DNA of 64,000 bases from an uncultured Thiohalocapsa sp. Its GTDB lineage: Bacteria; Pseudomonadota; Gammaproteobacteria; Chromatiales; Chromatiaceae. Positions 438 through 31,458 of this stretch are shown here, in pieces. The position numbers and the translations under genes are program-made. Location of the stretch: contig NZ_CAJXYK010000024.1 of the NCBI RefSeq assembly GCF_913063425.1, positions 1 to 64,000 on the forward strand. The letters are read 5' to 3'. The notes under the pieces were generated by a model. The model saw nothing but the letters and a program-made list of their open reading frames with translations, searched no databases and was not told the origin of the DNA. Position 1 is the first letter of the stretch; each line of letters starts with the position of its first letter.

Positions 438-463
438 GGTCGCGAAGCTGGAGCTTCGCGACC
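438..463. repeat. Hairpin, 12-bp perfect stem
   Basis: GGTCGCGAAGCT, a two-base GG loop, then AGCTTCGCGACC. It is the longest stem of the cluster and shares TCGCGAAGC/GCTTCGCGA with 271-294. Confidence 0.7.
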
Positions 464-610
464 AGGGAATCACCACGTAGCCAGGGCGACGCGGCGCAGA
501 GCGTCCGCCCCAGCTCCGACGCTGGAACGTGGGAGCCAGCGCCCGGCCCGTGCTCGGACTCATGATCGACGCCCGGCGGCTCGGGCTGCGCTGGCGCAAG
601 CGCGGCCCGG

Positions 611-635
611 CACAGGCTCACAGGCTGAGCCTGTG
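611..635. repeat. Hairpin, 10-bp perfect stem upstream of the helicase gene
   Basis: CACAGGCTCA, loop CAGGC, then TGAGCCTGTG. It ends 37 bases before the mrfA start codon, so it could fold in the mRNA leader or form part of a binding site; no function can be assigned. Confidence 0.6.
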
Positions 636-672
636 CTGCGGTAGGCTCCGGGAAACGCACCCGGAGCCTGCC

Positions 673-4847: not shown

Positions 4848-4874
4848 CCGGGGCTCTGTGCTCGGCGATATAAG
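4844..4874 (+). promoter_or_regulatory. Candidate sigma-70 promoter for the response regulator gene
   Basis: TTGACC at 4844-4849 is followed after 19 bases by TATAAG at 4869-4874 (or after 17 by GATATA). The -35 element overlaps the stop codon of the exonuclease gene, which would give the next gene its own start of transcription about 37 bases before its ATG. Seen by eye only. Confidence 0.4.
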
Positions 4875-4917
4875 AGGCCGCCTTCTTCAGGCTCCACGGC
4901 AACCAACGGAGCGGCCC

Positions 4918-5559: not shown

Positions 5560-5684
5560 GGTCCGCGTTGCCCGTGCACCGGGCGCGGGATCGGGACTGA
5601 TCGCCCGCACCGGGCTCGGCAGTGGCAGGGCATCGGCGCCGGTTCCGGCGCCCGAGCGCCGCAACCGGGGCCGCGTGCGCTGCT

Positions 5685-5706
5685 GCCGCCGACATCCATC
5701 GGCGGC
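5685..5706. terminator. Hairpin between convergent genes
   Basis: GCCGCCGA, loop CATCCA, TCGGCGGC: a perfect 8-bp GC stem lying 11 bases past the minus-strand peptidase stop and 126 bases past the response regulator stop. It has no T-run, so termination in either direction is only a possibility. Confidence 0.35.
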
Positions 5707-5717
5707 CGTCTGCCGGT

Positions 5718-7967
5718 TTAACGCTCCACCAGCGTCCCCTGCACCGGCATGCGCAGCTGCGGGCGTGCGTCGGAGAGCCACAGCGTCAGCGCGGAATCCC
5801 CGGGCGGCCATTGGCCCTTCAGCTGGTTGTCCGGCGCGTCGCCGGTGAAGGTCAGATAGCCGTACTTGCCGTAGTGCGGCAGCTTGCGGGCGAGTCCGGG
5901 CACCGCCGCCGGCGTCTCTGCCGCGACCCAGCCGAGCGCGCGCGTCGCATCCCCGGCCGCCAGGGCCACACTCACGCCACGCTGCTCGGTGCCGGCCAGG
6001 GCCAGGCTCCGGGCAGCGGGATCGAGGTCCAGCCCGCCGGCGGTCCCGGCGAATGCGTCGAGAAAGGCGTTCTCCCAGCCGAAGAGCCAGACGGCGCCCG
6101 CGTCCGGCAGTTCATCCAGCGCCTTGTCCTCAGCGATCTCCCAGCCCGGGTGACCCCGCTGCCAGGCCTCCGCCAGGCGGCGGTAGGCGGCTTTGAGTGG
6201 CCCGGGTGCCGCCGCCGGCAGCACCATCAGCCCGGCCTCGGCGCCGAACAGGTTGCTGAGGGAGGCCGGCGATTCCTCCGGCAGCAGCCGGCGGAAGGTG
6301 TCGAACTGGGGGTCCACCGCCACGCGCACCGGCGCCGTCGCCAGCCGCGCCTCGAAGCGGGCACCGCGCTGCTTGAAGGGTGCCAGCACCCGCCGCGGCG
6401 TGCCGCGCTCGGAGTGCACCACCACCGGCACCGTCATCGGGAAGGGGGGCTCATCCTGCACCTGATAGACGCTGCCGGAGACCAGGAAACCGCCGCCCTC
6501 GGCCTGGGCCACCTCGACATTGCCGAGCTTGAGGCGGGCGGCGCCGGTACGAGTGGTCCAGGCGCTGAAGAAATCGTCCAGATCGCGGTTGCTGGCGAGC
6601 TCGAAGGCGAGCTTCAGGTCGTCGAAGTCGGCGGTGCGGAAGCGGTTCTGGCGATAGAAGGCCTTGAGCCCGCTCTTGAAAGTGTCCTCGCCCAGCATGA
6701 CCCGCAGCATGTGCATGGTCATCAGCGTCTTGCCGTAACCGATGGCCTGGGAGGCGCTGCCGTGGCGACCGCGGAAGGCGGTGAGCGGGAAGTCCTCGCC
6801 GCTCTGCACGTAATCGGCGTAGGCCTTGAGCTGGTCGCGGCGGTAGTCGGCGCCGGCGCCCGCCAGGGCCTTGTTCAGATGGTCGGACAGGTAGGCCGTG
6901 AGCCCCTCGGACCAGTTGCCGCCGGCATAGTCCACGTAGACGCCGTTGCCCCACCAGTTGTGCAGGATCTCGTGGGGATAGGAGCTGTGCAGGATGAACG
7001 GCAGGCGCATCACCCGGGAGCCGAGCAGCGTGAAGGAGGGCATGCCGTAGCCCGTCTCCCAGAAATTCTCCACCAGCGCGAACTTGGCGTAGGGATAGGC
7101 GCCGATGAGCGCGCTGTAGCGGGCGAGGTAGGCGGCGGTGGCGTCCAGGTAGCGCGCGGCCAGGTCTGCGTCGGGCAGGCGCAGGTAGGCCTGGGCCTCG
7201 CCATGCGGCGTCTGCTGCCGATACAGCTTGAAGCGCGCGGCGCTGAGATAGAGCTCGTCCTGGGGCTGCTCCTCGGTCCAGCGGATCCGGGTGGCGTCGC
7301 CGTCCACCAGCTCGGGCCCCGCACCCTGGGAGACGGCGAGCCAGCCGGGCGGCAGAGTCACGGTGAGCCGCATGCGGTTCAGCGCGCCGGGACTGGTGGG
7401 ATACCAGCCGGTATAGCCGGTGAGAAAGACGCCGTCCGCGGCGATGGTGCCCACCAGCTGCTGGCGCTCGCGGCCCATGCCCTCGCGCACCGTGGTCAGG
7501 GGGTGGCGGATGCGCCCGCCGTAGCCCAGCGTCAGGGTGCTGCCGGGGGCCTTGGGCGTGAGCCGGAAGCGCTCCAGATGGCCCTCACGGCCGATGCGCT
7601 CCAGCACGGCGTCGCCCGCCACCACCCGGGGGGCGAGCCCGTGGTGCAGCAGGAACACGAGCTGGCCGATGTCGGCGGGCAGTGTCAGTTTGTCCGTGGT
7701 GGTGAGGCGGCCCGCCTCCGGGTCCAGCGCCACCTCGATGTCATGACCGACGACGGGCTGCGCCAGGGCGGCCCCTGCCGGCGGTGCCGCCCACAGCAGC
7801 GCCCACAGCAGCGCCCACAGCAGCATTGGCAGCACCGCCACGGCGGGCAGCAGCGCGCGCAGTGTGAGCGCGCGGCGGGCCGGCGCCGGGCGCAGGGCAG
7901 GCGTATCGGCTCGGGGGCGAATGGGCGCGGCAAGGCTCGGCATGGGGAACTTCGGGGGTCGGCGCAT
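5718..7967 (-). CDS. Exported M1-like (gluzincin) metallopeptidase
   Basis: Predicted zinc aminopeptidase-like protein of 749 residues, anchored or exported through an N-terminal hydrophobic segment (about 45-65). The zinc site is HEILH at 332-336 followed by GNWSEGL with Glu354, the gluzincin pattern HExxH...E. The spacing from the second His to Glu is one residue shorter than in typical M1 enzymes (18 instead of 19 steps), and no classical GAMEN exopeptidase motif is evident, so substrate class is uncertain. Start at 7967 because ACGGAG precedes that ATG; the frame is open to 8201 but would run into the divergent gene. The hydrophobic segment contains a threefold LLWA repeat encoded by three identical 12-bp units. 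It is divergent from the ChaN-like gene, 130 bp apart. Confidence 0.82.
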   Translation of the reverse strand: MRRPPKFPMPSLAAPIRPRADTPALRPAPARRALTLRALLPAVAVLPMLLWALLWALLWAAPPAGAALAQPVVGHDIEVALDPEAGRLTTTDKLTLPADIGQLVFLLHHGLAPRVVAGDAVLERIGREGHLERFRLTPKAPGSTLTLGYGGRIRHPLTTVREGMGRERQQLVGTIAADGVFLTGYTGWYPTSPGALNRMRLTVTLPPGWLAVSQGAGPELVDGDATRIRWTEEQPQDELYLSAARFKLYRQQTPHGEAQAYLRLPDADLAARYLDATAAYLARYSALIGAYPYAKFALVENFWETGYGMPSFTLLGSRVMRLPFILHSSYPHEILHNWWGNGVYVDYAGGNWSEGLTAYLSDHLNKALAGAGADYRRDQLKAYADYVQSGEDFPLTAFRGRHGSASQAIGYGKTLMTMHMLRVMLGEDTFKSGLKAFYRQNRFRTADFDDLKLAFELASNRDLDDFFSAWTTRTGAARLKLGNVEVAQAEGGGFLVSGSVYQVQDEPPFPMTVPVVVHSERGTPRRVLAPFKQRGARFEARLATAPVRVAVDPQFDTFRRLLPEESPASLSNLFGAEAGLMVLPAAAPGPLKAAYRRLAEAWQRGHPGWEIAEDKALDELPDAGAVWLFGWENAFLDAFAGTAGGLDLDPAARSLALAGTEQRGVSVALAAGDATRALGWVAAETPAAVPGLARKLPHYGKYGYLTFTGDAPDNQLKGQWPPGDSALTLWLSDARPQLRMPVQGTLVER
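7789..7824 (-). repeat. Three identical 12-bp tandem units inside the peptidase signal segment
   Basis: GCCCACAGCAGC is repeated three times without mismatch. On the coding strand it gives (LLWA)3, the hydrophobic core of the membrane anchor or signal peptide. Gain or loss of a unit would keep the frame and change the hydrophobic length by four residues. Confidence 0.85.
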
Positions 7968-8097
7968 GGTCGCTCCGTGGTCGGTTCGCGGCGGGCTCGC
8001 TGAGGAGCCGCGGCGGGCTGCACCGGGAGAATCCCGGGACGCGGCGCCGTCGCGCCCCCATAATGGAGATGTCCGCCAGACAATCACAGCAGGTGCC

Positions 8098-9279
8098 ATG
8101 ATCCAACGCCCCTTCACAACCCTTTCCGCCGCCGCCTGCGCCGCCGGCCTGCTCACGCAGGTCGCGGTCGCGGAGGCCACCGCCGCCGCCGCGGCCGACA
8201 TGCTGCCCGGTCAGGACGAGATCCACGACACCGCCACCGCCGTGGTGGAAACGGCGAGCGTGGCCGGCATCGATGCGCTGCTGCCGCGCTTGCGCGACAA
8301 GCGCGTGGTCTTTGTCGGGGAGTCCCACGACCGCTACGAGGACCACCTGAACCAGCTGCGTATCATTCGCGGCCTGCACGAGCAGGGGCACGACCTCGCC
8401 ATCGGCATGGAGTTCTTCCAGCGGCCCTTCCAGCCCGTGCTGGATGCCTTCATCGCCGGCGAGATCAGCGAGGCGGCACTGCTGCGGCAGACCGAGTACT
8501 TCACGCGCTGGCGCTTCGACTACCGGCTGTACCGGCCCATTCTGCGCTTCGCCCGCGAGCACGGCATCCCGCTGATCGCGCTGAACCTGCCGAAGGAGAT
8601 CACCGACCAGGTGGGCGACGGCGGCATCGACTCCCTGAGTCCGGAGCAGGCGGCCCTGATCCCGGCGGACATCGACCGCGACGACGCCGTGTATCGGGAG
8701 CGGGTGGAGGCGGTGTTCGCCCTGCACCCGAAGGACGACGATGCCGACTTCGAGCACTTCATGGAGGTGCAGCTGCTCTGGGACGAGGGCATGGCGGAGC
8801 GCGCCGCGGACTATCTGCAAGCGCACCCGGACAAGACCCTGGTGGTGCTGGCGGGCACCGGTCACGTGGAGTACGGTCACGGCATCCCCCAGCGGGTGGC
8901 CCGGCGCATCGACGTGCCGGCGGCGACGGTGGTGAGCGGCAACATGCGGCCCTTCGACCCCGGGCTCGCGGACTACATCCTGTATCCGCAGCGGGTGGAG
9001 CTGCCGGCCACCGGGCTGCTCGGCGTCATGCTGGACACGGACTCCGAGGGCGAAGGCCTGGGTGTGCAGGGCTTCAGCGAGGACAGCGGCGCCAAGGCCG
9101 CCGGCGTGGAGGAGGGGGACCGCATCGTCAGCGTCGGCGACAGCCCCATCGACAGCTATGCCGACATCCGCATCGCACTCATGGACAGCCGCCCGGGGGA
9201 GGTGCTGCCGGTGGAGGTATTGCGGGAGAAGCTCATCGGCGGCAAGGAGCGGCTCAGCTTCGAGGTGGAGCTGCACTAG
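8098..9279 (+). CDS. Exported ChaN-like haem-binding protein fused to a PDZ domain
   Basis: The 393-residue product has an N-terminal export signal (1-26), a ChaN-like domain (about 60-290; VFVGESHDRYEDHLNQL, GMEFFQRPFQ, VLAGTGHVEYGHG), and a C-terminal PDZ domain (about 300-393; GVQGFSEDSGAKAAGVEEGDRI). ChaN of Campylobacter binds cofacial haems; many proteins of the family are involved in iron/haem handling. PDZ domains bind C-terminal peptides and are common in periplasmic proteases and their partners. The start at 8098 follows an AGGTG site. It sits back to back with the peptidase gene, suggesting a shared regulatory region and perhaps a shared envelope role. No lipobox is obvious, so it is probably soluble in the periplasm. 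Confidence 0.82.
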   Translation: MIQRPFTTLSAAACAAGLLTQVAVAEATAAAAADMLPGQDEIHDTATAVVETASVAGIDALLPRLRDKRVVFVGESHDRYEDHLNQLRIIRGLHEQGHDLAIGMEFFQRPFQPVLDAFIAGEISEAALLRQTEYFTRWRFDYRLYRPILRFAREHGIPLIALNLPKEITDQVGDGGIDSLSPEQAALIPADIDRDDAVYRERVEAVFALHPKDDDADFEHFMEVQLLWDEGMAERAADYLQAHPDKTLVVLAGTGHVEYGHGIPQRVARRIDVPAATVVSGNMRPFDPGLADYILYPQRVELPATGLLGVMLDTDSEGEGLGVQGFSEDSGAKAAGVEEGDRIVSVGDSPIDSYADIRIALMDSRPGEVLPVEVLREKLIGGKERLSFEVELH

Positions 9280-13483: not shown

Positions 13484-15931
13484 ATGGCGTCAGAACGCCG
13501 CAGCAGCGACGACTTGCAGGCCACACCAGCCGCGGCGGGCCGGGTGCTGGCGCGCGGCGACTGTGCCGCGCTGGACTGGCTGCAAGCGCCGGTCTGGGTG
13601 TTCGACACCGAGCACCGGCGCATGTGGTGGGCCAATCAGGCGGCCCTCGCGCTGTGGAGCGCAGGAAACCTCGAGGAGCTTCTGGCGCGGGACTTCGCCG
13701 CCGACATGTCGGCGGTGACGGCGGCCCGGCTGAAGGACTATCTGCGCCGCTTCCGCGCCGGCGAGACGGTGCTGGAGCAATGGACCTTCTACCCCCGCGG
13801 GCGGCCGGTGACCGTGCACTGCACCTGCTCGGGCGTGCGCATCGACGACGGCCGCCTGGCCATGCTGGTGGAGGGGCGTCCGCCGCCGGAAGCTGCCACG
13901 GGCGACGCGCTGCGGGGTGTGGAGGCGGTGCGCTACGCCCCCGTGCCCATCGCGCTGTTCGACACCACCGGCCGGGTGCTCTTCCACAACCCGGCCGCCA
14001 CCGAAGCCTTCGGACCCGTGGCAAAGGGCGCCGCAGGCGGCTTCGTCGAGCGCTTTCGCGAGCCGCTGGTGGGTGAGCGCATCTGGCGGCAGGTGCAGGC
14101 CGGCGTGGAGGTGAGCGACGAGGTGGTCGTGCTCACCCGCAGCGGCGAGCGCCGCCACCGCCTGCGCTGTCGCCTCACGGAGGATCCGGCCACCGGCGCC
14201 CCGGCCGTTCTCGCCGTGCACGAGGACGTGACGGAGATCAAGCGCACCCAGGCCTCGCTGGAGAAGCTCTCCCGGGCCGTGGAGCACAGCGGCAGCGCCG
14301 TGATGATCACCGACGCGGCGGCGCGCATCGAGTATGTGAATCCGCAGTTCACGCGCCTGACGGGCTATACGGCGGCGGAGGTCACCGGCCGCACGCCGGC
14401 CATGCTGCGCACCGCCGAGACGCCGCCGGCGGTCTACACTCACCTGTGGTCCACCATCGGCGCCGGTGAGGTCTGGCGCGGCGAGCTGCACAACCGCAGG
14501 AAGGACGGCTCGCTTTACTGGAATCTGCTCACCATCGCGCCGATCCTGGACCCGGGCGGGCGCATCCGTCACTTCGTGGGCGTGAGCGAGGATGTCACGG
14601 CACTCAAGGAAGCGCATGCGCGGGCCGAGCAGCTGTCGCGCTACGGCGGCCTCACCGGGCTCGCCAACCGCCGGCTGTTCACCGAGCAGCTGGCGGACCA
14701 GGTTGCGGCGGCGCGGCGGGGCGGCTCAACCGCGGCGCTGCTGTTTCTGGACCTGGACGGGTTCAAGGAGATCAACGACACATTGGGCCATCAATTGGGC
14801 GACCGCCTGCTGTGCGAGGTCGCCCAGAGGCTGCGCGCCACCGCAGGCGATGGCGACACCGTCGCGCGCCTGGGCGGCGATGAATTCGCACTGCTGCTGC
14901 CGGGCTGTGCCGAGGCGGAGACCGCCGCCGCGATGGCGCAGCGCATCCTGGCGGCGCTGCGACGCCCGCTCGACCTGCCCGGCCTGCAGCGCCCGGTGGC
15001 ATCGAGCATCGGCATCACCCTGCTGCCCCGGGACGGCGCCGATGCAGACGCGCTGCTGCGCAACGCAGACCTCGCCATGTACAGCGCCAAGCAGGCCGGG
15101 CGCGGGCGCTGGGCCTTCTTTCGCCCGGACATGAATGCCGCCATCACGGCACGGGTGCAGCTGGAGCGGGAGCTGCGCGAGGCGCTGCGCACCGACGCGT
15201 TGATGCTGTGCTACCAGCCGGTGCTGCGGCTCGCGGATATGGCCGTCGTCGGCGCGGAGGCGCTGGTGCGCTGGCAGCACCCGCGCCACGGCCTGATGCT
15301 GCCGGCGTCCTTCCTGCGTGTCGCCGAGGACACGGGGCTCATTGTCGAGCTCGGCGAGCGGGTGCTGGCGCTGGCGTGCGCGGATCTGCACGCCAGTCTG
15401 GCGGACACGGGCCTTGCATGGATCAGCGTCAACGTTTCCGCGCGCCAGCTCGGCGCGCCCGGCTTCGAGTCGCACCTGCGGCGTGTGCTCGCGCAGCACT
15501 GGACGGGGCCGCTGCGGCTCAAGCTGGAGCTCACCGAAACCACGTTGATGCAGCACGGCGGTCCCGACGATGCCCTGCTGTCGCGCCTGCGCGATTTGGG
15601 CATCGGCCTCGCCGTGGACGATTTCGGCTCCGGTTGCGCGTCCATGGCGGCGCTGAAGCAACTGCCGGTGGACAGCCTGAAGGCGGATCGCGCCTTCATC
15701 CGCGCGCTGCCGCAGGATGCCGGCGAGCGCGCCATCATCACCGCCGTGCTGACCTTGGCCCGGGGGCTCGGCATCGGCGTCGTGGCCGAGGGCATCGACA
15801 GTCGGGCGCAGCTCGACTTCCTGCGCAGCGTCGGCTGCGACTTTGGTCAGGGCTTCCTGCTCGGGCGGCCCATGCCGGCGCCGGTGCTGAGGGCCTGGCT
15901 TGAGGCGCGCTCCGCAGACCCTGGGAGATGA
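13484..15931 (+). CDS. PAS-PAS-GGDEF-EAL cyclic-di-GMP enzyme
   Basis: 815 residues, no membrane segment: PAS-like sensory regions at about 30-130 and 150-260, a clearer PAS-PAC (about 265-390, VMITDAAARIEYVNPQFTRLTGY), a GGDEF domain (about 400-560) and an EAL domain (about 575-815). GGDEF is intact (464-468), so diguanylate cyclase activity is possible; the RxxD inhibitory site is missing its Arg (Gly there). EAL is intact (592-594) with NVSARQL, ELTET, DDFGSG and the LKADR lysine, so phosphodiesterase activity is also possible. The start at 13484 lacks a clear ribosome-binding site and could lie upstream. It precedes the cyclase gene by 125 bp on the same strand. Confidence 0.85.
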   Translation: MASERRSSDDLQATPAAAGRVLARGDCAALDWLQAPVWVFDTEHRRMWWANQAALALWSAGNLEELLARDFAADMSAVTAARLKDYLRRFRAGETVLEQWTFYPRGRPVTVHCTCSGVRIDDGRLAMLVEGRPPPEAATGDALRGVEAVRYAPVPIALFDTTGRVLFHNPAATEAFGPVAKGAAGGFVERFREPLVGERIWRQVQAGVEVSDEVVVLTRSGERRHRLRCRLTEDPATGAPAVLAVHEDVTEIKRTQASLEKLSRAVEHSGSAVMITDAAARIEYVNPQFTRLTGYTAAEVTGRTPAMLRTAETPPAVYTHLWSTIGAGEVWRGELHNRRKDGSLYWNLLTIAPILDPGGRIRHFVGVSEDVTALKEAHARAEQLSRYGGLTGLANRRLFTEQLADQVAAARRGGSTAALLFLDLDGFKEINDTLGHQLGDRLLCEVAQRLRATAGDGDTVARLGGDEFALLLPGCAEAETAAAMAQRILAALRRPLDLPGLQRPVASSIGITLLPRDGADADALLRNADLAMYSAKQAGRGRWAFFRPDMNAAITARVQLERELREALRTDALMLCYQPVLRLADMAVVGAEALVRWQHPRHGLMLPASFLRVAEDTGLIVELGERVLALACADLHASLADTGLAWISVNVSARQLGAPGFESHLRRVLAQHWTGPLRLKLELTETTLMQHGGPDDALLSRLRDLGIGLAVDDFGSGCASMAALKQLPVDSLKADRAFIRALPQDAGERAIITAVLTLARGLGIGVVAEGIDSRAQLDFLRSVGCDFGQGFLLGRPMPAPVLRAWLEARSADPGR

Positions 15932-16056
15932 TGGCAAAACCCTTCATTTCGGCGCCGCAACCGTGCGATGCTCGCCGTCGCACTGCACGATGGCCACCAC
16001 GGGCGCCGCGTCGGCGCTCGGCGCCGCCGCAGCTGCGCCACCCAGGGTACAAGACC

Positions 16057-19000
16057 ATGACAGTCCCGCCCCAGCGCGATCAGCGCGTCGATGACTGGCT
16101 GGCCGGGCTCGGCCTGGCGGAGCTCGCCGATGTGCTCGCCCGCGAGCGCATCGACTGGGAGCTGCTGCCGGAGCTGGGCGCGGCGGACCTGCGCGAGCTC
16201 GGCATCCCCCTGGGCCTGCGCAAACGCCTGCTGCAGGGCCTGGAGACCCTGCGCGCGACACCGTCACCGGTCCGCTCGCCGCCGGCGGAGGACGGCGCCG
16301 AGCGCCGCCTGCTGACGGTGCTGTTCTGCGATCTGGTGGGCTACACGGCGCTTGGTCAGCACCTGGACGCCGAAGACCTGCAGGACGTGCTGGATGCCTA
16401 CCGCCGCTGCTGCGGCGCCGCCATCGAGCGCTTCGGCGGTCATGTCGCCAACTATCTCGGCGACGGCATCATGGTCTACTTCGGCTATCCCCGGGCCAGC
16501 GAGCAGGATGCCGAGCGCGCCGTGCACACGGCGCTGGACCTGATGCAGCGCCTGGCGGCCGAGCCCCCCGTGCACGGTATCCGCATCCAGGCGCGGGTGG
16601 GCATCGCCACCGGCCCGGTGGTGGTGGGCCGGCTCATCGGCCTCGGCACCGCCCGCGAGCGCTCCGTGGTGGGGGAGACGCCGAGCCTCGCGGCACGCCT
16701 GCAATCCCTGGCCGGCCCGGACGGCATCGCCGTCGCGGAGAGCACCCACAGGCTCACCGGCGGCTTGTTCGAGTGGCAGGACCTGGGCACGCATCCGCTC
16801 AAGGGGTTCGCGGCCCCGGTGCAGGCCTGGCAGCCGCTTGCGGTGCGCCAGGTGGAAAGCCGCTTCGAGGCCGTGCGCCAGACCGGACAGGGCGGCGCGG
16901 CGGACGGCCCGCCCATGGTGGGGCGGGAAGCGCCGCTGCGTGAGCTGCTGTCCCTGTGGCAGACCTGCGAGGCGGGCCGCGGCGCCCTGGTGCTGCTGCG
17001 CGGGGAAGCGGGCATCGGCAAGTCCCGGCTCACCCAGGCCCTGCGCGCCGCCGTGGCCCAGCGCACGCACCGGGCGCTGCGCATGTACGCCTCGCCCTAT
17101 TTCAGCAACACCGCGCTCTACCCGCTGATTGCGCAGCTGGAGCGCTCCGCCGGCTTCCACCGCGACGACAACACCGACACCCGGCTCGACAAGCTGGAGC
17201 GTCTGCTCGCCGAGACCGAGCAGAACCGCCCGGAGGTGCTGCCGCTGTTCGCCGACGTGCTGTCCCTGCCCACCGATCGCTGGCCGAGCCGCAACCTGAC
17301 GCCGCAACTGCGCCGCGCCGAGACCCTGCGCGTGCTGCTGGAGCGCCTGCGGCGGGTGGCGGCGGATGCCCCGGTGCTGCTGGTGCTGGAGGACCTGCAC
17401 TGGGTGGACCCCACCACCCTGGAGCTGCTCGCCAAGGCCGCGGACATGCTGGCGGAGCTGCCCATCCTGGTGGTGCTGACGGCGCGCCCGGAATTCAGTC
17501 ATCCCCTGTTCGACGCGGACACCGCCCACCCCGCCGCCCGGGTGCTGACCCTGGAACGGCTCGCACCCGGCGACACCGCCCGCGTCATGGTGGCCCTGGC
17601 CGGCAAGCCCCTGGCGCCGCGACTCTACGAGCGCATCCATGCCAAGGCGGACGGCGTGCCCCTGTTCGTCGAGGAGCTCACCAAGAACCTGCTGGAGAGC
17701 GACGCCCTGGAGGAGCGCGACGGCGAGCTGCGGGCCGCGGGCGGCGACGACGCCCTGGCCATCCCGGACACCCTGCAGGACTCGCTCATGGCGCGCCTGG
17801 ACCGCCTGGAGGATGCGCGGGAGCTGGCGCAGGTGGGGGCGGTCATCGGCCGGCAATTCAGCGCGGCGCTGCTGGCACGGGTGCTGGAGCGCGAGCCGGC
17901 GGCGCTGGCGGCGGGCCTCGGCCGTCTTGCGGACGCGGAGCTGGTGTTCACCAGCGGCAGCGACGCCCACCGCCAGTACAGCTTCAAGCACGCGCTGGTG
18001 CAGGACGCGGCCTACAACAGCCTGCTGCGCCGTCGCCGCCGGGGCCTGCACGGCCGGGTGGCGGATGTGCTGGAGGCGGAGTTTCCGGAAGTTGTCGCGG
18101 GCGAGCCCGAGCTGCTCGCCCACCACCATGCCGGGGCGGACCACCCGGACCGCGCCGCGGGCTATTGGCAGCGCGCCGGCGAGCGGGCCCTGCAGCGCTC
18201 CGCCAACGAGGAGGCCATCGCCTACCTGGACCGCGCGCTGCCCATGGTGGAGCGGCTGCCGGCATCGGTGGCGCGCAATCAGCTGGAGCTGGGGCTCTAC
18301 GCCAGTCTGGGGCCGGCGCTGATGATGGCCCGCGGCTACACCGCACAGGAGGTGCAGCGGGCCTATGCCCGCGCCGGCGAGCTCTGCTCCCAGGTGGGGG
18401 AGACGCCGTTGCTGGTGCCGGCGCTGTTCGGGCTCTGGATCCACTACGCCGCGCGCTTCGAGCTGGCCGAGTGCCGCCGCATGGGTGAGCAGCTGTTCGC
18501 CGTCGGTGCCGCGTCGGGAGATCCGGACCTGATCCTGGAGACCCACGTGGTGCTGGGTGCGACGACTTTCCACATGGCCGAGCTGGACAAGGCCGCCTCG
18601 CACCTGCGCCACGTGGTGGCGCATTACGACCCGGTGCGCCACGGCGAGCACGCCTACACCTACGGGCAGGACCCCGGGGTGGCGGCCGGGGTGTATCTGG
18701 CCAATGCGCTGTGGTGCGCGGGCGCCCGGGAGGATGCCCTGGCCAGCCTGGATCAGGCCCTGCGCCTGGCCCGGGACCTGGGCCATCCCTACAGCCTGGC
18801 GCTGGGACTGGTGTTCGCGGCGCGGGTGCAGCAGAAGGAGCGCGATGCGGCAGCCACGGAGCGGCTGGCGCAGGAGGCCGTGAGCCTGGCGCAGCGCCAG
18901 GGCTTCCCGGCGGTGCTGTGCATGGCCCAGGGGCTGCTCGGCTGGGCGCTCGCGGCCCGCGGCGAGCATGCGGCGGGCCTGGAGGTGCAGCGCCAGGGGC

Positions 19001-19320
19001 TCGACTTCGGCCAAGCCATCGGCCACGGCGTCTCCCGCGCCTGGTTTCTGGCGCTGCTGGCGGACTCGGCGCTGGACGCAGGCGACCTGGATGCCGCCGG
19101 GGCGGCGCTGACGGAGGCCACCGCCAACATCGCCCGCATCGGCGCCCAGGCGGAGGAGGCGGAGGTCTACCGGGTGATGGCGCGCCTGCACGCCCACCGC
19201 GGCGAGGACGCGGCGGCCCAGGAGTGGCTGCACCGGGCGCGGGAGCGTGCGCAGGCCCAAGGGGCGCTCGGCTGGCACCGGCATCTGGATGCCCTTGCCG
19301 CAGAGACCGCGACCGGCTGA
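16057..19320 (+). CDS. SAM domain-class III adenylate cyclase-AAA ATPase-TPR protein
   Basis: A 1087-residue signalling protein. N-terminal SAM domain (about 5-65; VDDWLAGLGLAELADVL), class III nucleotide cyclase domain (about 85-255) with both metal aspartates in LFCDLVGYT and YLGDGIM, an AAA_16-type ATPase (about 290-560; GEAGIGKSRL with Lys322, then VLLVLEDLHWVD), and TPR-like helices to the end (about 640-1080). This architecture is a known family in proteobacteria, thought to make cAMP in response to signals sensed by the ATPase/TPR part; the ligand is unknown. The start at 16057 is the ATG just before the SAM domain; no clear ribosome-binding site. Its position behind the c-di-GMP gene suggests linked second-messenger control. 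Confidence 0.85.
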   Translation: MTVPPQRDQRVDDWLAGLGLAELADVLARERIDWELLPELGAADLRELGIPLGLRKRLLQGLETLRATPSPVRSPPAEDGAERRLLTVLFCDLVGYTALGQHLDAEDLQDVLDAYRRCCGAAIERFGGHVANYLGDGIMVYFGYPRASEQDAERAVHTALDLMQRLAAEPPVHGIRIQARVGIATGPVVVGRLIGLGTARERSVVGETPSLAARLQSLAGPDGIAVAESTHRLTGGLFEWQDLGTHPLKGFAAPVQAWQPLAVRQVESRFEAVRQTGQGGAADGPPMVGREAPLRELLSLWQTCEAGRGALVLLRGEAGIGKSRLTQALRAAVAQRTHRALRMYASPYFSNTALYPLIAQLERSAGFHRDDNTDTRLDKLERLLAETEQNRPEVLPLFADVLSLPTDRWPSRNLTPQLRRAETLRVLLERLRRVAADAPVLLVLEDLHWVDPTTLELLAKAADMLAELPILVVLTARPEFSHPLFDADTAHPAARVLTLERLAPGDTARVMVALAGKPLAPRLYERIHAKADGVPLFVEELTKNLLESDALEERDGELRAAGGDDALAIPDTLQDSLMARLDRLEDARELAQVGAVIGRQFSAALLARVLEREPAALAAGLGRLADAELVFTSGSDAHRQYSFKHALVQDAAYNSLLRRRRRGLHGRVADVLEAEFPEVVAGEPELLAHHHAGADHPDRAAGYWQRAGERALQRSANEEAIAYLDRALPMVERLPASVARNQLELGLYASLGPALMMARGYTAQEVQRAYARAGELCSQVGETPLLVPALFGLWIHYAARFELAECRRMGEQLFAVGAASGDPDLILETHVVLGATTFHMAELDKAASHLRHVVAHYDPVRHGEHAYTYGQDPGVAAGVYLANALWCAGAREDALASLDQALRLARDLGHPYSLALGLVFAARVQQKERDAAATERLAQEAVSLAQRQGFPAVLCMAQGLLGWALAARGEHAAGLEVQRQGLDFGQAIGHGVSRAWFLALLADSALDAGDLDAAGAALTEATANIARIGAQAEEAEVYRVMARLHAHRGEDAAAQEWLHRARERAQAQGALGWHRHLDALAAETATG

Positions 19321-19345: not shown

Positions 19346-22036
19346 TCAGATCTCGATGCTCTCGCCGATGCCCGCCGGCAGCAGATAGTCGCGGGCGCGC
19401 TGCTCGCCCTGGCTGCGCGCGCGGATGGCCGCGCCGATGGCGTCCAGGCGCCCGCGCAGCTCGCCCACCAGCTGCCACACCGCCGGCAGGTCCGCGAAGG
19501 ACGAGAAGCCGTAGGTGCCGAGGGGCTCGTCGCTCGGCTCGCTCAGCAGATGCACCATGAGGATCTGCTGGGCCGAGGCCCCGAAGCCCGGCAGGGCACG
19601 CATCAGGTCGTCCTCGCTGGCGCTGCACTTGTTGGTGGGCGCCGGCGCATACAGGGCGCCGGGCACATTGGGCACATAGCCGAACATGTCGTACTGGCCG
19701 TTGTTCACGGCGGCGTGTCCGGCGCTGGCGGTGTAGACGATCTGAGTCACCAGGTCGGCGAGCAGGGCACGGTCGCCGATGCCGCCGGCGCCCGGGAAGC
19801 CGCGGATGCGCCCGCCTGCGTCGGCGGCAAGCTCCTGCGCCCAGGCCTGGAGCTCAGTGTCGGCGACGACGCTGGCATCGTCCGGGTAGAAGAGCGCCAG
19901 ATAGCCGCTGACGAAGGCGTGCAGCGCGGCCCAGAGCGCCTGCACGTCCTCGCGGTAGTCGTAGCGGGGCAGGGCGTCCGCGTCCATGACGCCGCGGCGC
20001 TTCAGGTCTTCGATGGGGTGCATGTCGGCATAGGACCACTCGGCCCAGGCCCGGCCGAGCAGCTCCAGGCTGCCGGCGGCGCCTGCGGCCAGGGTCTTGT
20101 CGATGGGGCCGCCCGGCGCCAGCAGCTTGCGCCGCGCGGCGTCGTTGATGGCCATGGTGTAGCGGAAGTGCGGTGTGAGCAGGGCGCTCAGCGGGTGGTC
20201 CGGGTGCAGCTGCCGGGCGCTGGCGACGGCGAAGACCTCCATGACCAGATGCGTGTGCAGCAGGTGCACGACGATCTCGTGCATGTGCGCATCGGCGCTC
20301 TGTAGGAAGCGGGTCACGGTGAGCCAGAGCCAGGCCGGGTCCTTGGGCGTGAAGATGGGGTTGTGCGGGCCTGGCACCTGGCGCAGCTGGGCCGCGATGG
20401 GCAGAAGACGGCCGAGCCGGTCCACATAGAGCAGGCAGATGGGCGCGGTGAGATAGCCGTTCTTGGTGCTGATGGTCTCCAGCAGCGGATAGTCCAGCAG
20501 GTAGAGCCGCCGCGCCGCCATGGCCGAGGCCAGGGTCTCGCCCGGGTCCAGCAGCCCCTCGACCAGCGCGTCGGTCACCGGGAGCTTCTCCGGTAGGGCG
20601 TCGCAGCGCCGCAGCATCAGGGGATTGATGCCGGCCAGCCGCTGCCGGGCGTATTCGGCATCTTCTGTCCAGCGCCGCGCCGTCAGGGGCTTCTGGCGCA
20701 CGGAATAGAAGACCTCGTAGCGCCGGATGCCCTTGAGGCTGCCGAAGGTCCAGCGGGGCCAGGCGAGCAGCAGGTCCAGTACTGTCACCGCGAGGTCGCT
20801 GTTCATGCGCCAGCGCTTCTGCAGGTCGAAGGCCTCCCGCGCCGGCAGCGTTGCCACGTGCGGCGGGGCGTGCTCGGGGTGCGCCCAGCGGTAGGTACTG
20901 CGCGTCAGCGCCAGCTGCTCGTCACGCCGGCGACGACCGTCGGCGTTCTCGTCCTGCGGCAGGCGCAGGGCCTGCGGGCGGGTGTTGGGCTCCGGCACCT
21001 CGCGGGCGTCGGGGATGGCCCCGGGCATGCCGAACAGGCGGTAAGACAGCAGCCGCGCGCGCTTGGTCCAGATATCCAGCCGACGCAGATGGTTGAGCGA
21101 CGCCGGGTCATGGATGGAGCGGGCCTTGGGCACGCTCATGCACTTGGGCAGGTTCGCGATGTGGAACCACATGCGCTGGCCGGCGCGATAGTCCAGGGCG
21201 CGGTCCAGCGACACCTCCGCCAGCGGCAGCCAGGGGTGGGTGTCTTCGTTCCAGGGCTGCACGCAGTTGAGGATGGCGCGATCGTCGTCCGGGCGGCGGC
21301 GATGCAGCTGCAGCTCCAGGTGGTAGCGGATGGGGCCGCGGGCGATGCGGGCGGCCAGATCGTCCTTGAGGTAGTTGCGCGAGCGGGTCTCGCCGGGGCG
21401 GATCAGCTGCCGCCACAGGCATTCGAGCTCCGCCTCGGTGGCGCGGCCGTGGCCCTGCTCGCGGTCCTCCGGCAGCAGCCGGAACTTGATGTAGTAGTCC
21501 ACGCCGTCCGCGTCGCGAAAGCCGAGCGGGGTCTTGGAATGGTAGCGCAGCCGGGTGTAGCTCTCGGGGTAGCGCAGGGCGCCGCGGATGCCCGCGATCT
21601 CCTCCGGATAGCGCTTGAGGTAGGGGACGATGTAGGGGTCGCGACCGCGGATGGTGGCCCACATGAACTGCAGGAAGGTGTAGGCGTCTTCGAAAGGGCC
21701 GGCATCCCCGCTGTTCATCATCAGGTCCAGCGGGCTGTCGTAGGGCGCATCGGCGAGCTTGAGCGACGCCGCCCGGGCCACCAGCCGCGCATCGTCCATG
21801 TAGGAGACGCTCGCGTGCCGCAGCCGGCACGGGAACACCCGCCCGGGGGTGAAGAAGTCGTTCCGCGGAAAGGCAGGGTTGTCCACGATACGCACCCGGC
21901 CGGCCAGCGCCATGCCGTTCTCGTGCGACATCCGCACGCGCTTGAACAGGGAGTTCAGCGTGATCAGCAGCAGGATCAGGAAGCTCACCAGCGCCAGCAG
22001 CAGCCGGTCGTACAGAAACTGGAAGAACGCCTTCAC
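19346..22036 (-). CDS. Membrane-anchored catalase-like haem domain fused to lipoxygenase
   Basis: 896 residues. A membrane helix (8-28) is followed by a catalase-related domain (about 36-345) with distal His38 in MSHENG, the block RYHSKTPLGFRD and proximal haem ligand Tyr332 in RLLSYRLFG. After a charged linker comes a lipoxygenase domain (about 410-896) with iron ligands His586 and His591 (HEIVVH), His774 and Asn778 (HAAVN) and the required C-terminal Ile896. Related fusions (coral allene oxide synthase-lipoxygenase, Anabaena) make a fatty-acid hydroperoxide with one domain and rearrange it with the other. The haem domain resembles those more than true catalase. Start is GTG 22036, with GAGG 7 bases upstream. 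The cleavage product cannot be predicted. It is last in a minus-strand run with the sulfatase. Confidence 0.88.
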   Translation of the reverse strand: MKAFFQFLYDRLLLALVSFLILLLITLNSLFKRVRMSHENGMALAGRVRIVDNPAFPRNDFFTPGRVFPCRLRHASVSYMDDARLVARAASLKLADAPYDSPLDLMMNSGDAGPFEDAYTFLQFMWATIRGRDPYIVPYLKRYPEEIAGIRGALRYPESYTRLRYHSKTPLGFRDADGVDYYIKFRLLPEDREQGHGRATEAELECLWRQLIRPGETRSRNYLKDDLAARIARGPIRYHLELQLHRRRPDDDRAILNCVQPWNEDTHPWLPLAEVSLDRALDYRAGQRMWFHIANLPKCMSVPKARSIHDPASLNHLRRLDIWTKRARLLSYRLFGMPGAIPDAREVPEPNTRPQALRLPQDENADGRRRRDEQLALTRSTYRWAHPEHAPPHVATLPAREAFDLQKRWRMNSDLAVTVLDLLLAWPRWTFGSLKGIRRYEVFYSVRQKPLTARRWTEDAEYARQRLAGINPLMLRRCDALPEKLPVTDALVEGLLDPGETLASAMAARRLYLLDYPLLETISTKNGYLTAPICLLYVDRLGRLLPIAAQLRQVPGPHNPIFTPKDPAWLWLTVTRFLQSADAHMHEIVVHLLHTHLVMEVFAVASARQLHPDHPLSALLTPHFRYTMAINDAARRKLLAPGGPIDKTLAAGAAGSLELLGRAWAEWSYADMHPIEDLKRRGVMDADALPRYDYREDVQALWAALHAFVSGYLALFYPDDASVVADTELQAWAQELAADAGGRIRGFPGAGGIGDRALLADLVTQIVYTASAGHAAVNNGQYDMFGYVPNVPGALYAPAPTNKCSASEDDLMRALPGFGASAQQILMVHLLSEPSDEPLGTYGFSSFADLPAVWQLVGELRGRLDAIGAAIRARSQGEQRARDYLLPAGIGESIEI

Positions 22037-22263: not shown

Positions 22264-25071
22264 TCAGTGCGGCCCACTCTGCAAGTGCTGGATCGGACTG
22301 CCGTCAACGGCGGTCGCCCGGGACGCCTCCAGTGTCTTGGCGTCCTCCGGCGTGAGCTGCGGGCGGTCGACCGTGATGGTCAGCTTGTTGAGCTGGGCGG
22401 TGAGCGGGAACGGCGGCTTGTAGTCGGCGTCGTTGACCCCGGTCAGGGTATCCGAGCCGATGTCGAAGCTCTCGTCCCACTGCAGGATGATGGGCAGCGT
22501 GTGCTTGAGCTTCTGCGTCTGCACAACCTCGCCATCCACCTTGAGGACGCCGGTGCCGGACTGTCCGATGCCGCTCATGTTGTTGTAGGCGAGGGTGCCA
22601 TCGCCAAGGCCGTCGTACTGGAAGTCGAACTCGATGGTGTGCTGTCCGGGGGAGAGCGCCTCTGGACCTTCCCACTTGACGCGCTTGAGGTTGATCAGGT
22701 TCCACAGGAAGACCGGCTTCCCATCGAGCAGGTAGAAACCGTAGCCGGCAAAGCGCCCGCCCGAGGTGAGGATCATGCCCTCGGCGCCACCCGCCGGCAC
22801 GGTGATGTCGGCCGTGATGGTGTAGGAGCTGTTGAGCAGAGACGGCGAGTCACCCTGGGGCAGACCGACCATCGGGCGCGTGTAGACGAACGCGGTGCGC
22901 CCGGCGGTGATGTTCGGGCGCGGTGCGGCCATGCGTGCCGCCACCGATGCATTGAGTGGAAACACCTGGTACTTCCTGGCTTCCGCGATGAACTTCTCCT
23001 TCAGCTCCGCCACCTTCTCCGGATGGTCGGCAGCGATGTCGTTGGACTGGGTGAAGTCTTTGGTCAGGTCGTAGAGCTGGAAGGTTTGGTTGTTGAGCGG
23101 GTCGGGATTGGCCGCGCCGAAGGCTTGCCAGGGCGCCCGATTGACCTTGGTGCTCAGCAGCCAGCCGTCGTCGTACAGCGCCCACTGCCCCATCATCTCG
23201 AAGTACTGGGTCTGGTGGCGCGCCGGTGCGTCGGCGTTTTCGGCGTCGAAGGTGTAGGCGAAGCTGGTGCCCTCGATGGGTGCCTGCTCGATGCCGTCAA
23301 CCTCCTCGGGTGCCGCGATGCCGGTGACCTCGAGGATAGTCGGCACGACATCGATGACATGGATGAACTGCTCGCGCAAAGCACCCTTGTCTTTGATGCG
23401 CGCCGGCCAGGCGACGACCATATTCTGGTTGATGGCGCCGAGCCGGGAGGCGTTCTGCTTGAACCAGTCGAAGGGCGTGTCGAAGGCCCAGGACCAGCCC
23501 GCGGACATGTGGTTGTAGGTCTCCTCGGTGCCCCAGACGTCGTACCACTGCATCTGGGTCTCCACCGGCATCTCATTGACGCCGTTGAAGAAGGCCACCT
23601 CGTTGGGGGTGCCGAGCGGGCCGCCCTCGGCGCTGGTGCCGTTGTCGCCGTTGATGTAGATGATCAGCGTGTTGTCGAGCCGACCCACGTCCTCGAAGGC
23701 CTGGACCACACGGCCGATCTCGTGGTCGGTGTAAGCGGCGTAGGCGGCAAAGACCTCCACCTGACGGATGAAGAGCTTCTTCTCGTCATCGGTGAGCTGG
23801 TCCCAGGGCTTCAGCAGCTCATCCGGCCAGGGCGTGAGCTGCGAATCCTCCGGAATCACGCCGAGCCGTTTCTGGTTCTCGAAGATCGTCTGGCGCAGCG
23901 CCTCGTAGCCGTCATCGAACAGGTTCATGGCCTGGATCTTCTCGACCCATGCCTGCGTGGGGTGGTGCGGCGCGTGCGTGGCACCCGGCGCATACTTGAT
24001 GAACAGCGGCTTGGACGGATCGGTCTGATGCACCCGGTAGATGTAATCGATGGCGTCATCGGCCATGCCGGTGATCAGGTTCCAGGTCCCCTCCTTGCCG
24101 TCGAAGGGATAGATCTGTGTGGTGTTGCGGAACAGGTTCGGCTGCCATTGGTTGGCGTCGCCGCCGACGAAGCCGTAGAAGTACTCGAAGCCCATGCCCG
24201 TGGGCCACTTGTCGAAGGGACCCGCCTGGCTGGCGGCGAAGGCCGGCGTGTTGTGGTCCTTGCCGAACCAGGCCGTGGCGTAGCCGTTCTCCAGCAGGAT
24301 GCGACCGATGGTGGCCTTGTCCTCGGCAATGATGCTGTTGTAGCCGGGATAGCCGGTGGACTGTTCCGAGATCACGCCGAAGCCGGCGGAATGGTGATTG
24401 CGGCCGGTGATCAGCGCCGCCCGCGTCGGCGAGCACAGGGCGGTGGAGAAGACGCGGTTGTAGCGCAGCCCCGCGTTGGCGATCTGGTCCATGGTCGGCG
24501 TCGGGATGACGCCGCCGAAGGTGCTCGGCACGCCGAAGCCGGCGTCATCGGTGATGATCAGCAGGATGTTCGGTGCCTCCTTGGGCGGCGCGATGCGCGG
24601 CGCCCACCAAGGCGTCGAGCTGAGCGCATCGTCCTTGATCACGCCGCCGAAGGGCGGTGCGGGTGCCGGGAGCTGCTCGCCGCTGATGGTCGCCGTGGCG
24701 TCGGGTGCGCCCATCGTGCCGGCGATCACCTCATAGCCCGCGGCATCCGCACTCGCGGCGCCCGCTGCTGCCGGCATACCCTGTCCCGGGATCGCGAGCT
24801 GCTGGCCCACGTCGATGACGTCAGTGCTCAGGTCGTTCTTTGCCTTCAACGCTGCGAGTGACACACCGAAGCGCGCGGCGATATCGGACAGGTCGTCGCC
24901 TGCTGCGACCTCGTAGGTGGACGTGTCAGGGTTGTAGGCGCCTTGCGCATGGGGACGGGCGCCTTGGTCCTCGGCCGCCGCGGCGGTGGCGAACAGCAGC
25001 ACCAGGCCCAGCGCGGCGGCGGTGAATCCACCTCGCCCCGGGCCGACGGCGAGCATCGGATCGAACATCAT
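22264..25071 (-). CDS. Exported arylsulfatase with N-terminal LysM domain
   Basis: 935 residues: signal peptide (about 15-33), LysM domain (about 50-100; TYEVAAGDDLSDIAARFGVS), linker, type I sulfatase domain (about 165-640) and a C-terminal beta-rich domain. The sulfatase signature is CSPTRAALITGR with Cys213, to be converted to formylglycine. Metal-ligand candidates are the DDAGFG aspartates and the DNGTS pair. Lysine and histidine of GKDH fit the active site. The sulfatase plus C-terminal part matches the long (about 780 residue) actinobacterial/proteobacterial arylsulfatases; LysM, which binds peptidoglycan or chitin-like glycans, is the unusual addition. No formylglycine-generating enzyme gene is nearby. 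GAGGAG stands 6 bases before the ATG. Confidence 0.88.
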   Translation of the reverse strand: MMFDPMLAVGPGRGGFTAAALGLVLLFATAAAAEDQGARPHAQGAYNPDTSTYEVAAGDDLSDIAARFGVSLAALKAKNDLSTDVIDVGQQLAIPGQGMPAAAGAASADAAGYEVIAGTMGAPDATATISGEQLPAPAPPFGGVIKDDALSSTPWWAPRIAPPKEAPNILLIITDDAGFGVPSTFGGVIPTPTMDQIANAGLRYNRVFSTALCSPTRAALITGRNHHSAGFGVISEQSTGYPGYNSIIAEDKATIGRILLENGYATAWFGKDHNTPAFAASQAGPFDKWPTGMGFEYFYGFVGGDANQWQPNLFRNTTQIYPFDGKEGTWNLITGMADDAIDYIYRVHQTDPSKPLFIKYAPGATHAPHHPTQAWVEKIQAMNLFDDGYEALRQTIFENQKRLGVIPEDSQLTPWPDELLKPWDQLTDDEKKLFIRQVEVFAAYAAYTDHEIGRVVQAFEDVGRLDNTLIIYINGDNGTSAEGGPLGTPNEVAFFNGVNEMPVETQMQWYDVWGTEETYNHMSAGWSWAFDTPFDWFKQNASRLGAINQNMVVAWPARIKDKGALREQFIHVIDVVPTILEVTGIAAPEEVDGIEQAPIEGTSFAYTFDAENADAPARHQTQYFEMMGQWALYDDGWLLSTKVNRAPWQAFGAANPDPLNNQTFQLYDLTKDFTQSNDIAADHPEKVAELKEKFIAEARKYQVFPLNASVAARMAAPRPNITAGRTAFVYTRPMVGLPQGDSPSLLNSSYTITADITVPAGGAEGMILTSGGRFAGYGFYLLDGKPVFLWNLINLKRVKWEGPEALSPGQHTIEFDFQYDGLGDGTLAYNNMSGIGQSGTGVLKVDGEVVQTQKLKHTLPIILQWDESFDIGSDTLTGVNDADYKPPFPLTAQLNKLTITVDRPQLTPEDAKTLEASRATAVDGSPIQHLQSGPH

Positions 25072-30003: not shown

Positions 30004-31458
30004 TCAATCGTGCTCGAAGGCCGCGGCGATGCGCCCGCCCACGTCCGGGTCGATCCTGCGCCAATACTCGAAGGCGCGCTCCAGCACCGGCTGGGTAACG
30101 CCGTCCTTCAGGTGGCCGACCACATTGCTCACCAGGCGCTCGCGGGCGGCGTCGTCCATCACGTGGCGCACCAGGTTGCCCGCCTGCACGAAGTCGTCAT
30201 CCTCCCGGTGCGGCGTCTGCGCGGTGTGCATGAATTCGCCGCTCGCCGCCCAGCCCGCCTGGTAGGGCCAGCGCTCCGGGTCCGCGGCGGGTCCGCCCTT
30301 GGAGTTGGGTGCGTACACCGGGTCCTCGGACTTGATCACCCGCATGGCGCCCTCCTTGCTGTAGGCATGCACCGGCGCCTGCGGGCGATTCACCGGGATC
30401 TGCTTGTAATTGACGCCCATGCGGGCGCGGTGGGCATCCGCGTAGGAGAACACCCGCGCGAGCAGCATCCGGTCCGGGCTGAAGCCGATGCCGGGGACGA
30501 TGTTGTTGGGCTCGAAGGCGGCCTGCTCGATCTCGGTGTGATAGTCCGTCGGATTGCGGTCGAGCGTCATGCGGCCGACCTCCATCAGCGGGTAGTCGCC
30601 GTGGGGCCAGACCTTGGTGAGGTCGAAGGGGTTGAAGCGGTAGTCCGCGGCGTCCTCGAAGGGCATGATCTGCACTTTGAGTGTCCAGCTCGGATACTCG
30701 CCGCGCTTGATGGCCTCGTAGAGGTCGCGGGTGTGGTAGTCCGCGTCGGCGCCGGCCAGGCGGTCGGCCTCCTCCTGGGTCAGGTAATCGATGCCCTGGT
30801 CCGTCTTGAAGTGGTATTTCACCCAGAAGCGCTCGCCCTCGGCGTTCACCCACAGGTAGGTGTGGCTGGAGTAGCCGTTCATGTGGCGCCAGGTCTTGGG
30901 GATGCCGCGGTCGCCCATGAGCCAGGTCACCTGGTGGGCCGTCTCCGGTGACAGCGTCCAGAAGTCCCACTGCATGTCATGGTCGCGCAGGTTGACGTCC
31001 GCGCGGCGCTTCTGAGAGCGGATGAAGGGTTGGAACTTCATCGGATCGCGGACGAAGAAGATGGGCGTGTTGTTGCCCACCATGTCGTAGTTGCCCTCGG
31101 GCGTGTAGAACTTCAGTGCGAAGCCGCGGGGGTCGCGCCAGGTGTCGGGGCTGCCCCGCTCGCCGGCGACGGTGGAGAAGCGCGCGAGCATTTCGGTGGT
31201 CGCGCCGGGCTGGAACAGCGCTGCCCTGGTGTAGGCACTGACGTCGTTGGTGACCTCGAAGCGTCCGTGGGCGCCGCCACCCTTGGCATGGGGCTGACGC
31301 TCCGGGATGCGCTCGCGGTTGAAATTCGCCATTTGCTCCAGTAGGTAATGATCCTGGAGCAGGATGGGACCATCCGGCCCGACGGTAAGCGAGTATTCGT
31401 CACTCGGCACCGGAATGCCGGCGTCGGTGGTGGTGGGCTTGCGGCCGTCGTTGCTCAT
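30004..31458 (-). CDS. Haem catalase, clade 3
   Basis: 484 residues, the normal size of a small-subunit monofunctional catalase that destroys hydrogen peroxide. The distal haem pocket is RQPHAKGG with His57, followed by [19 protein letters not shown] split by the usual core and VGNNTPIFF. The proximal region [14 protein letters not shown] holds the tyrosine ligand and GVNY follows. ACGGAG precedes the start codon. No signal peptide, so cytoplasmic. A DJ-1/PfpI gene lies directly upstream on the same strand but a strong terminator separates them, so each probably has its own promoter. Confidence 0.93.

Follow-up and report, generated by a model that had tools for sequence, protein, structure and literature searches.

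Fusion of a catalase-related haem domain with a lipoxygenase, encoded beside a class III nucleotide cyclase gene in a Thiohalocapsa-like purple sulfur bacterium

Fusions of a catalase-related haem domain to a lipoxygenase have been described so far from corals and cyanobacteria. The coral allene oxide synthase-lipoxygenase of Plexaura homomalla (cAOS-LOX; structures 1u5u and 3dy5) and the coral hydroperoxide lyase (cHPL)-lipoxygenase both carry the haem domain first and the lipoxygenase second, and in Anabaena PCC 7120 and Acaryochloris marina a catalase-related domain fused to a lipoxygenase is active on C18 fatty acids, according to the accessible text of the respective accounts (PMC11719350, PMC4319731). 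The same small catalase fold occurs in stand-alone mini-catalases, such as those of the NGR234 plasmid and of M. avium paratuberculosis (3e4w). Here we describe a fusion gene from a 64,000-nucleotide stretch of DNA (contig NZ_CAJXYK010000024.1, positions 1 to 64,000; hereafter the window) of a Thiohalocapsa-like purple sulfur bacterium, a gammaproteobacterium of the same genus as Thiohalocapsa halophila, which encodes a membrane helix, a haem domain and a lipoxygenase, in this order, in one open reading frame of 896 amino acids. An earlier interpretation made from the DNA letters alone (the sequence-only reading) had already proposed both the fusion and a gammaproteobacterial host, and both are borne out: the 896-residue fusion is real. 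It has the same domain order as the coral proteins and the same pairing of domains as the cyanobacterial ones, the latter compared through their published descriptions, as our searches did not bring up their sequences; the accessible parts of these descriptions mention neither a membrane helix nor a signalling neighbourhood. A literature search, for which most subscription papers were out of reach, found no published haem-lipoxygenase fusion for gammaproteobacteria, and the purple-bacterial protein is a new variant of these fusions.

From the fusion, its ligands, their conservation and the neighbouring genes, we infer a haem content, a substrate, a product and a sensing step, and on balance we lean towards an oxylipin synthase tied to second-messenger signalling, because coral cAOS-LOX is matched by both domains and shares their order, the side-chain ligands of the lipoxygenase are invariant, and signalling genes adjoin the locus in the window, in a genome where the two domains are separate genes (G412), and in another genus (g293). 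We hypothesize that the protein is a two-step enzyme held at the inner membrane by its N-terminal helix. Polyunsaturated fatty acids (PUFA) would be taken up from algal or cyanobacterial debris, the C-terminal lipoxygenase would add O2 to form a hydroperoxide, and this would be handed to the N-terminal haem domain, in which Ser37-His38 and Asn108 might convert it to an aldehyde, an epoxide or an allene oxide. The adjacent cyclase protein might then, in Chromatiaceae, detect this product or the peroxide intermediate and respond by making a cyclic nucleotide. In outline, the protein would work like the known haem-lipoxygenase fusions, but we do not file it as an allene oxide synthase, because it lacks the distal Thr-His pair and its proximal ligand is not settled.

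In the lipoxygenase half, PF00305 matched residues 454–876 with 212 bits (E 2.1e-62; curated cut-off 23.6), and phmmer searches of solved structures aligned residues 358–894 with residues 5–567 of the 569-residue lipoxygenase chain 5med, and residues 446–890 with coral 3dy5 (domain E 6.1e-76). In agreement with the sequence-only reading, all of the iron ligands are present, namely His591, His596, His774, Asn778, and the terminal Ile896; the four side-chain ligands are invariant in 7 of 7 full-length members, while the last residue is Thr in five g293 members vs. Ile in the window protein. A match over the cut-off, four side-chain ligands and a C-terminal carboxylate, the features by which we recognize a lipoxygenase, are therefore all found. 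No PLAT domain was matched by Pfam in the fusion protein at E 0.001, which is a difference from the coral enzyme. Ala634, invariant in 7 members, lies at the Coffa position, placed by hand from the phmmer alignment with 3dy5, where the coral row has Gly; R/S stereochemistry is not claimed from this residue, the Anabaena enzyme being an exception.

At the other end of the protein, the N-terminal membrane helix of the sequence-only reading is likewise supported by the hydropathy of residues 12–30 (Table 1). It ends 8 residues before the distal His38, a hydrophobic stretch (at least 1.82) occurs in all 7 other members tested, and the flanking charges are similar on both sides of the helix, favouring neither a periplasmic nor a cytoplasmic topology. 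Such a helix is another difference from the coral enzyme.

The haem domain had no Pfam or NCBIfam match at E 0.001, and therefore both libraries miss it. By contrast, phmmer aligned residues 22–330 with coral cAOS (domain E 8.3e-52 for 3dy5 and 4.7e-53 for 1u5u), and a profile built from 8 family haem domains found 1u5u at 3.5e-78. A full-length structural model was too low in confidence for use (predicted local distance difference test, pLDDT, 41.1), whereas a model of the haem domain only (mean pLDDT 54.9, below 50 from residue 321 on) suffices for the fold but not for the ligand. The top structural match of this low-confidence model was 1u5u (Foldseek E 3.0e-16), followed by catalases, and its superposition on 1u5u (Z 15.1, root-mean-square deviation 3.8 over 212 residues) suggests a coral-like haem fold. 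A relation to coral cAOS is thus found in sequence, and in predicted fold. A plain monofunctional catalase was considered and rejected, as PF00199 had no match in the fusion at E 0.001.

The relation to coral cAOS-LOX put forward by the sequence-only reading therefore holds, but the distal pocket departs from the coral one in a way that this reading overlooked. Among 10 family haem domains (8 in a first alignment and two added in a second), the distal pair is Ser-His in all 10, whereas it is Thr-His in coral and in the NGR234 mini-catalase; the Thr-His pair is called a hallmark in a title cited by PMC10813956, and this feature of a coral-type allene oxide synthase is absent here. The distal His and Asn are shared with coral, Asn108 (coral N137) being invariant, as are Arg35 and Arg73, the counterparts of two of the three coral haem-propionate Arg residues (R64, R102, and R360). 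Arg328 falls on coral R360 only in the alignment register without the proximal Tyr. The invariance of Arg35, Ser37, His38, Arg73, and Asn108 in 8 haem domains argues for a haem site under selection.

The proximal side is less clear. The sequence-only reading had named His38 as the distal and Tyr332 as the proximal residue; the former is confirmed as an invariant residue, but the latter is not established, since coral Tyr353 aligns at or beside Ile322. It was placed on Asp321 by phmmer, as an insertion between 321 and 322 by the family profile, and on 322 by two MAFFT alignments, and position 322 is Ile, Gly, Trp or Arg, with Tyr in 0 of 10 haem domains, so that the proximal Tyr position appears altered relative to coral. 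Tyr332, 10 residues further on, belongs to a catalase-like R-xxx-Y motif and is the rival ligand. In pairwise alignments with gap costs of 11/1, the coral Tyr fell on a non-Tyr residue at 321–322 in 8 of the 10 members, on a gap in one and on Tyr332 in one, whereas the NGR234 Tyr fell on Tyr332 in 6 members and at 322 in 4, and softer gap costs paired it with Tyr332 in 8. The NGR234 mini-catalase aligns over family-profile positions 32–326 and, unlike the window protein, has the canonical Thr-His and R-AIV-Y motifs and no fused lipoxygenase. The window's own catalase aligns too poorly with the haem domain to place the proximal Tyr. In the model superpositions, whose ranges give ends only, window residue 333 is the last one paired, with residue 364 of the coral protein and residue 369 of human catalase (1dgh), and the superpositions on other catalases end a few residues differently. 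If coral Tyr353 and Tyr358, the proximal Tyr of human catalase, are used, these ends would put 322 on or next to the ligand position. It therefore appears that the proximal iron ligand has been either relocated to Tyr332 or lost, and as the pairwise alignments are split, we leave this unsettled. Should the role of the canonical Tyr have passed to Tyr332 or to some other residue, these proteins would offer a test of how a catalase fold can change its iron ligand. On the NGR234 plasmid (L024 4880–10933), the mini-catalase frame (5944–6927) is annotated as a shorter hypothetical protein, and genes for a di-haem peroxidase and a patatin adjoin it.

Coral lyase and synthase are separated by pocket residues, as stated in the accessible text of PMC5617202. 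In our alignment, Phe121 is the counterpart of the lyase residue Phe150 of cHPL, but Gly149-Ile150, at coral positions 176–177, are nearer to Asn176-Leu177 of the synthase. The product type therefore cannot be read from the pocket, and we gave up predicting it from these mixed signs.

The fatty-acid substrate is probably foreign to the host, because no PUFA synthase gene exceeded the cut-off: none of the 5 carriers had a pfaD match over it, and Halioglobus alone gave weak matches that fell short of it. One gene of the FA-desaturase family, the only desaturase family searched, was over the cut-off in the window's genome and one was below, and the former, judged by its sequence, looks like a delta-9 type; an endogenous supply of PUFA was therefore rejected. 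In mats on stranded macroalgae, pufM libraries were dominated by Thiohalocapsa-related clones, according to the accessible part of that study (PMC5660696).

The signalling neighbourhood was overlooked by the sequence-only reading, which had instead placed the fusion in an exported sulfatase gene set. The sulfatase is not kept beside the fusion in T. halophila (G446), whose orthologue of the fusion is 84% identical to the window protein, and we rejected it as functional context; only the cyclase side is kept, with class III cyclase, GGDEF-EAL and amidase genes beside the fusion, while the Pfam-matched genes upstream are those of a ParD-type antitoxin and an AMP-binding/acyltransferase protein. 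In the window, the class III cyclase gene is convergent with the fusion; no second PF00211 match was found in the genome (5.9 Mb), compared with 2–3 matches in five other carriers. Its product also matched TIGR03903 (TOMM kinase/cyclase) with 544.8 bits, below the cut-off of 705.75.

In 5 of 5 genomes of genus g293, the fusion shares 4 bp (TGA/ATG) with a large gene for Pkinase, AAA_16, GAF and class III cyclase domains (hereafter, with its relatives, the giant gene; three of the five were analysed with Pfam, and the remaining two are 91–95% identical to one of these three). Upstream of the fusion, tblastn found in all five genomes a gene with cNMP-binding and Crp-type helix-turn-helix domains. 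Its N-terminal half is phosphodiesterase-like, with PDEase_I just over the cut-off in two and below it in one of the three genes run through Pfam; the protein encoded at L029 6568–8208 has a class I-like motif, and such a fusion of phosphodiesterase-like and cNMP-binding/Crp-type parts is unusual. In G412, an 8.7-kb contig holds a separate haem gene (82–1341, plus strand) and lipoxygenase gene (6834–8474, minus strand), with a kinase-AAA-GAF-cyclase giant gene (1527–6830, minus strand) between them. Giant genes also occur near two stand-alone lipoxygenases outside the family, one with a histidine kinase and receiver output and a RoxA-like gene in between (G284), and the other convergent at 191 bp with a GGDEF output (G859). 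A literature search with the same reach found no publication on a lipoxygenase beside a kinase-AAA-GAF gene.

To gauge this link, giant genes were counted in 28 chosen genomes, 16 with and 12 without a lipoxygenase, with 14 candidates scored per genome. Among these candidates, near-full-length giants were found in G284 (2), G859, the five g293 genomes, G412 and G932, and one partial giant in a genome without a lipoxygenase (G372). Of the 9 genomes with both a lipoxygenase and a giant, 8 have the two genes side by side or close together, and in G932 the giant is on another contig. Among 22 lipoxygenase loci searched by tblastn with signalling proteins, 10 had a giant or class III cyclase gene as a direct or close neighbour and 12 had none, although several of the latter are short contigs and tblastn could miss other kinds of cyclase. 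Such a neighbour accompanies 8 of 10 loci in the fusion family (the misses are two from Halieaceae), compared with 2 of 12 outside it; the five g293 genomes are not independent. By our own arithmetic, a signalling neighbour would arise by chance about once in 1000 per lineage.

Lipoxygenase genes were found in 10 of the 210 genomes of the order: 7 fused (the window's genome, T. halophila, and the five of g293), 1 split (G412), and 2 stand-alone (G932 and G375), with no family haem domain in the stretches fetched around the latter two. In the Halioglobus family, 2 of 140 genomes carry the fusion, which is thus rare. Searching 398 genomes of the phylum with the haem profile gave two matches, the window's own and a weak one, and a search of the class with the window protein matched, besides its own, 6 of 369 genomes, in the lipoxygenase part only bar one short match with stops (G093). 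Twelve plasmid records matched and 0 covered 80% of the query; three of the twelve were inspected, and on the Acaryochloris plasmid the match is to a lipoxygenase gene whose annotated neighbours include no haem gene. In the lipoxygenase tree, nine fused rows and G412 stand on one side of a branch vs. seven other bacterial rows (100/99), and G412 groups with the two Halieaceae rows (96/98). Because it nests with these inside the fused clade, its split arrangement seems to stem from fission, or from an exchange among family members, which the haem-domain tree, whose long branches were flagged, leaves unsettled.

Several results weigh against an oxylipin synthase tied to signalling. The lipoxygenase is found in only 2 of 10 listed genomes of the window's genus, the Halieaceae fusions (L002, L003) have no cyclase neighbour, and the gene upstream of the fusion is interrupted in G436, one of the g293 genomes, by an in-frame stop between its phosphodiesterase-like and CRP halves. 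In both Thiohalocapsa, the cyclase motif GETPSLAAR has Ser at the position where class III cyclases usually have the catalytic Asn. The canonical proximal Tyr may be absent, and its absence would weaken or alter the haem chemistry. Two coral Lys residues proposed to bind the substrate carboxylate (Lys60 and Lys107; accessible text of PMC5617202) have no conserved counterpart: Lys32 varies within the family, and Ser78 takes the place of Lys107. Moreover, a shared neighbourhood is linkage, and says nothing on what signals to what.

These points leave room for other explanations. Both domains might serve to consume PUFA and membrane-harming peroxides, as a defence with no role in signalling; this would suit the genuine catalase 8 kb from the fusion, the peroxidase and patatin genes beside the Thr-His mini-catalase of NGR234, and the Halieaceae copies that lack a cyclase neighbour. 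However, a lipoxygenase itself makes peroxides, and defence leaves unexplained both the overlap with the kinase-AAA-GAF-cyclase gene and the two giants near lipoxygenases outside the family, and we regard it as unlikely. Alternatively, the haem domain might be a pseudo-enzyme that lost its proximal Tyr and, with it, haem or turnover, serving as a membrane and substrate-channelling scaffold for a plain lipoxygenase. Position 322, which is never Tyr, and the superposition ends, which would put it on or next to the ligand position, point this way, but the model behind the latter is weak, particularly from residue 321 on, the five distal-side and propionate residues named above stay invariant, as do Arg328 and Tyr332, and the NGR234 Tyr pairs preferentially with Tyr332 in 6 of 10 pairwise alignments, so we give this explanation a small chance. 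Similarly improbable in our judgement is an accidental neighbourhood, in which an ordinary, horizontally acquired oxylipin synthase acts on other organisms, for example on algal or host lipids. The patchy spread (genus, order and Halioglobus family alike) and the 12 of 22 loci without a signalling neighbour are in keeping with it, yet giants number only 1–2 per genome among the candidates scored and are nevertheless beside or near the lipoxygenase in 8 of 9 genomes.

Extending the oxylipin synthase reading, we tentatively consider, for purple bacteria, a self-contained one-operon circuit resembling eicosanoid signalling, composed of a membrane-anchored enzyme with a relocated haem ligand, a kinase-AAA-GAF receptor and a phosphodiesterase-CRP readout. 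The receptor would sense the oxylipin and make a cyclic nucleotide, which the phosphodiesterase-CRP fusion would both destroy and read at promoters. The sensor half, which is met again close to lipoxygenases from outside the family, there joined to a histidine kinase or GGDEF output instead, might therefore be a general bacterial receptor for oxylipins or lipid peroxides, which is possible but doubtful on present evidence. A distant parallel is offered by the fission-yeast kinases Mak2 and Mak3, which combine Ser/Thr kinase and GAF domains (PMC5383687) and whose deletion, of either mak2 or mak3, impairs the relay of H2O2 signals (PMC3644883), as far as the accessible texts go. Like Mak2/Mak3/Chk1-type kinases, the giants of G284 and G859 combine kinase, AAA and GAF domains, and they match TPR_CHK1 weakly, but unlike them, the giants near lipoxygenases have a class III cyclase, histidine kinase or GGDEF output, and the peroxide link is an analogy rather than evidence of the giants' ligand. 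A purple-bacterial fusion among cyclic-nucleotide signalling genes hints that bacteria may both produce and perceive signals akin to animal eicosanoids. If the linked genes also work together, there would be a candidate family of receptors for bacterial oxylipins, coupled to second messengers.

Table 1. Features of the fusion gene and its surroundings in the window.
Feature	Position	Strand	Basis or remark
Fusion gene, 896 aa, GTG start	19346..22036	-	Open reading frame, no internal stops
Predicted membrane helix, aa 12–30	21947..22003	-	Kyte-Doolittle mean hydropathy 2.63 over 19 residues
Catalase-fold haem domain, ~aa 33–345, related to coral cAOS	21002..21940	-	phmmer, family profile, model fold
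Distal Ser37-His38	21923..21928	-	Invariant in 10 haem domains
Ile322, at or beside canonical proximal Tyr position (coral Tyr353)	21071..21073	-	Alignments, model; partly contradicted by pairwise alignments
Arg328-Leu-Leu-Ser-Tyr332, catalase-like R-xxx-Y, rival proximal ligand	21041..21055	-	Arg and Tyr invariant
Lipoxygenase domain, aa 352–896	19349..20983	-	PF00305 E 2.1e-62; without PLAT match
Iron ligands His591 and His596	20249..20266	-	Present in translation and alignment
Iron ligands His774 and Asn778	19703..19717	-	Present in translation and alignment
C-terminal Ile896, carboxylate ligand	19349..19351	-	Read from translation
SAM - class III nucleotide cyclase - AAA_16 - TPR gene	15928..19320	+	Convergent, 25 bp from fusion
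Sulfatase with N-terminal LysM	22264..25071	-	
Genuine monofunctional catalase	30004..31458	-	PF00199 3.4e-186

A scan for promoters and terminators found no promoter-like site, and 2 terminator-like sites compared with 1.0 (standard deviation 1.0) in shuffled sequence. Elsewhere, other lipoxygenase genes stand in different company: directly after an animal-type haem peroxidase gene in G375 (PF03098, 4.8e-64; L048 75–4558), beside RoxA-like di-haem cytochrome genes at two loci (L032 7965–11551; L047 8220–13529), and divergent from a GGDEF gene in G706 (L058 7262–10591).

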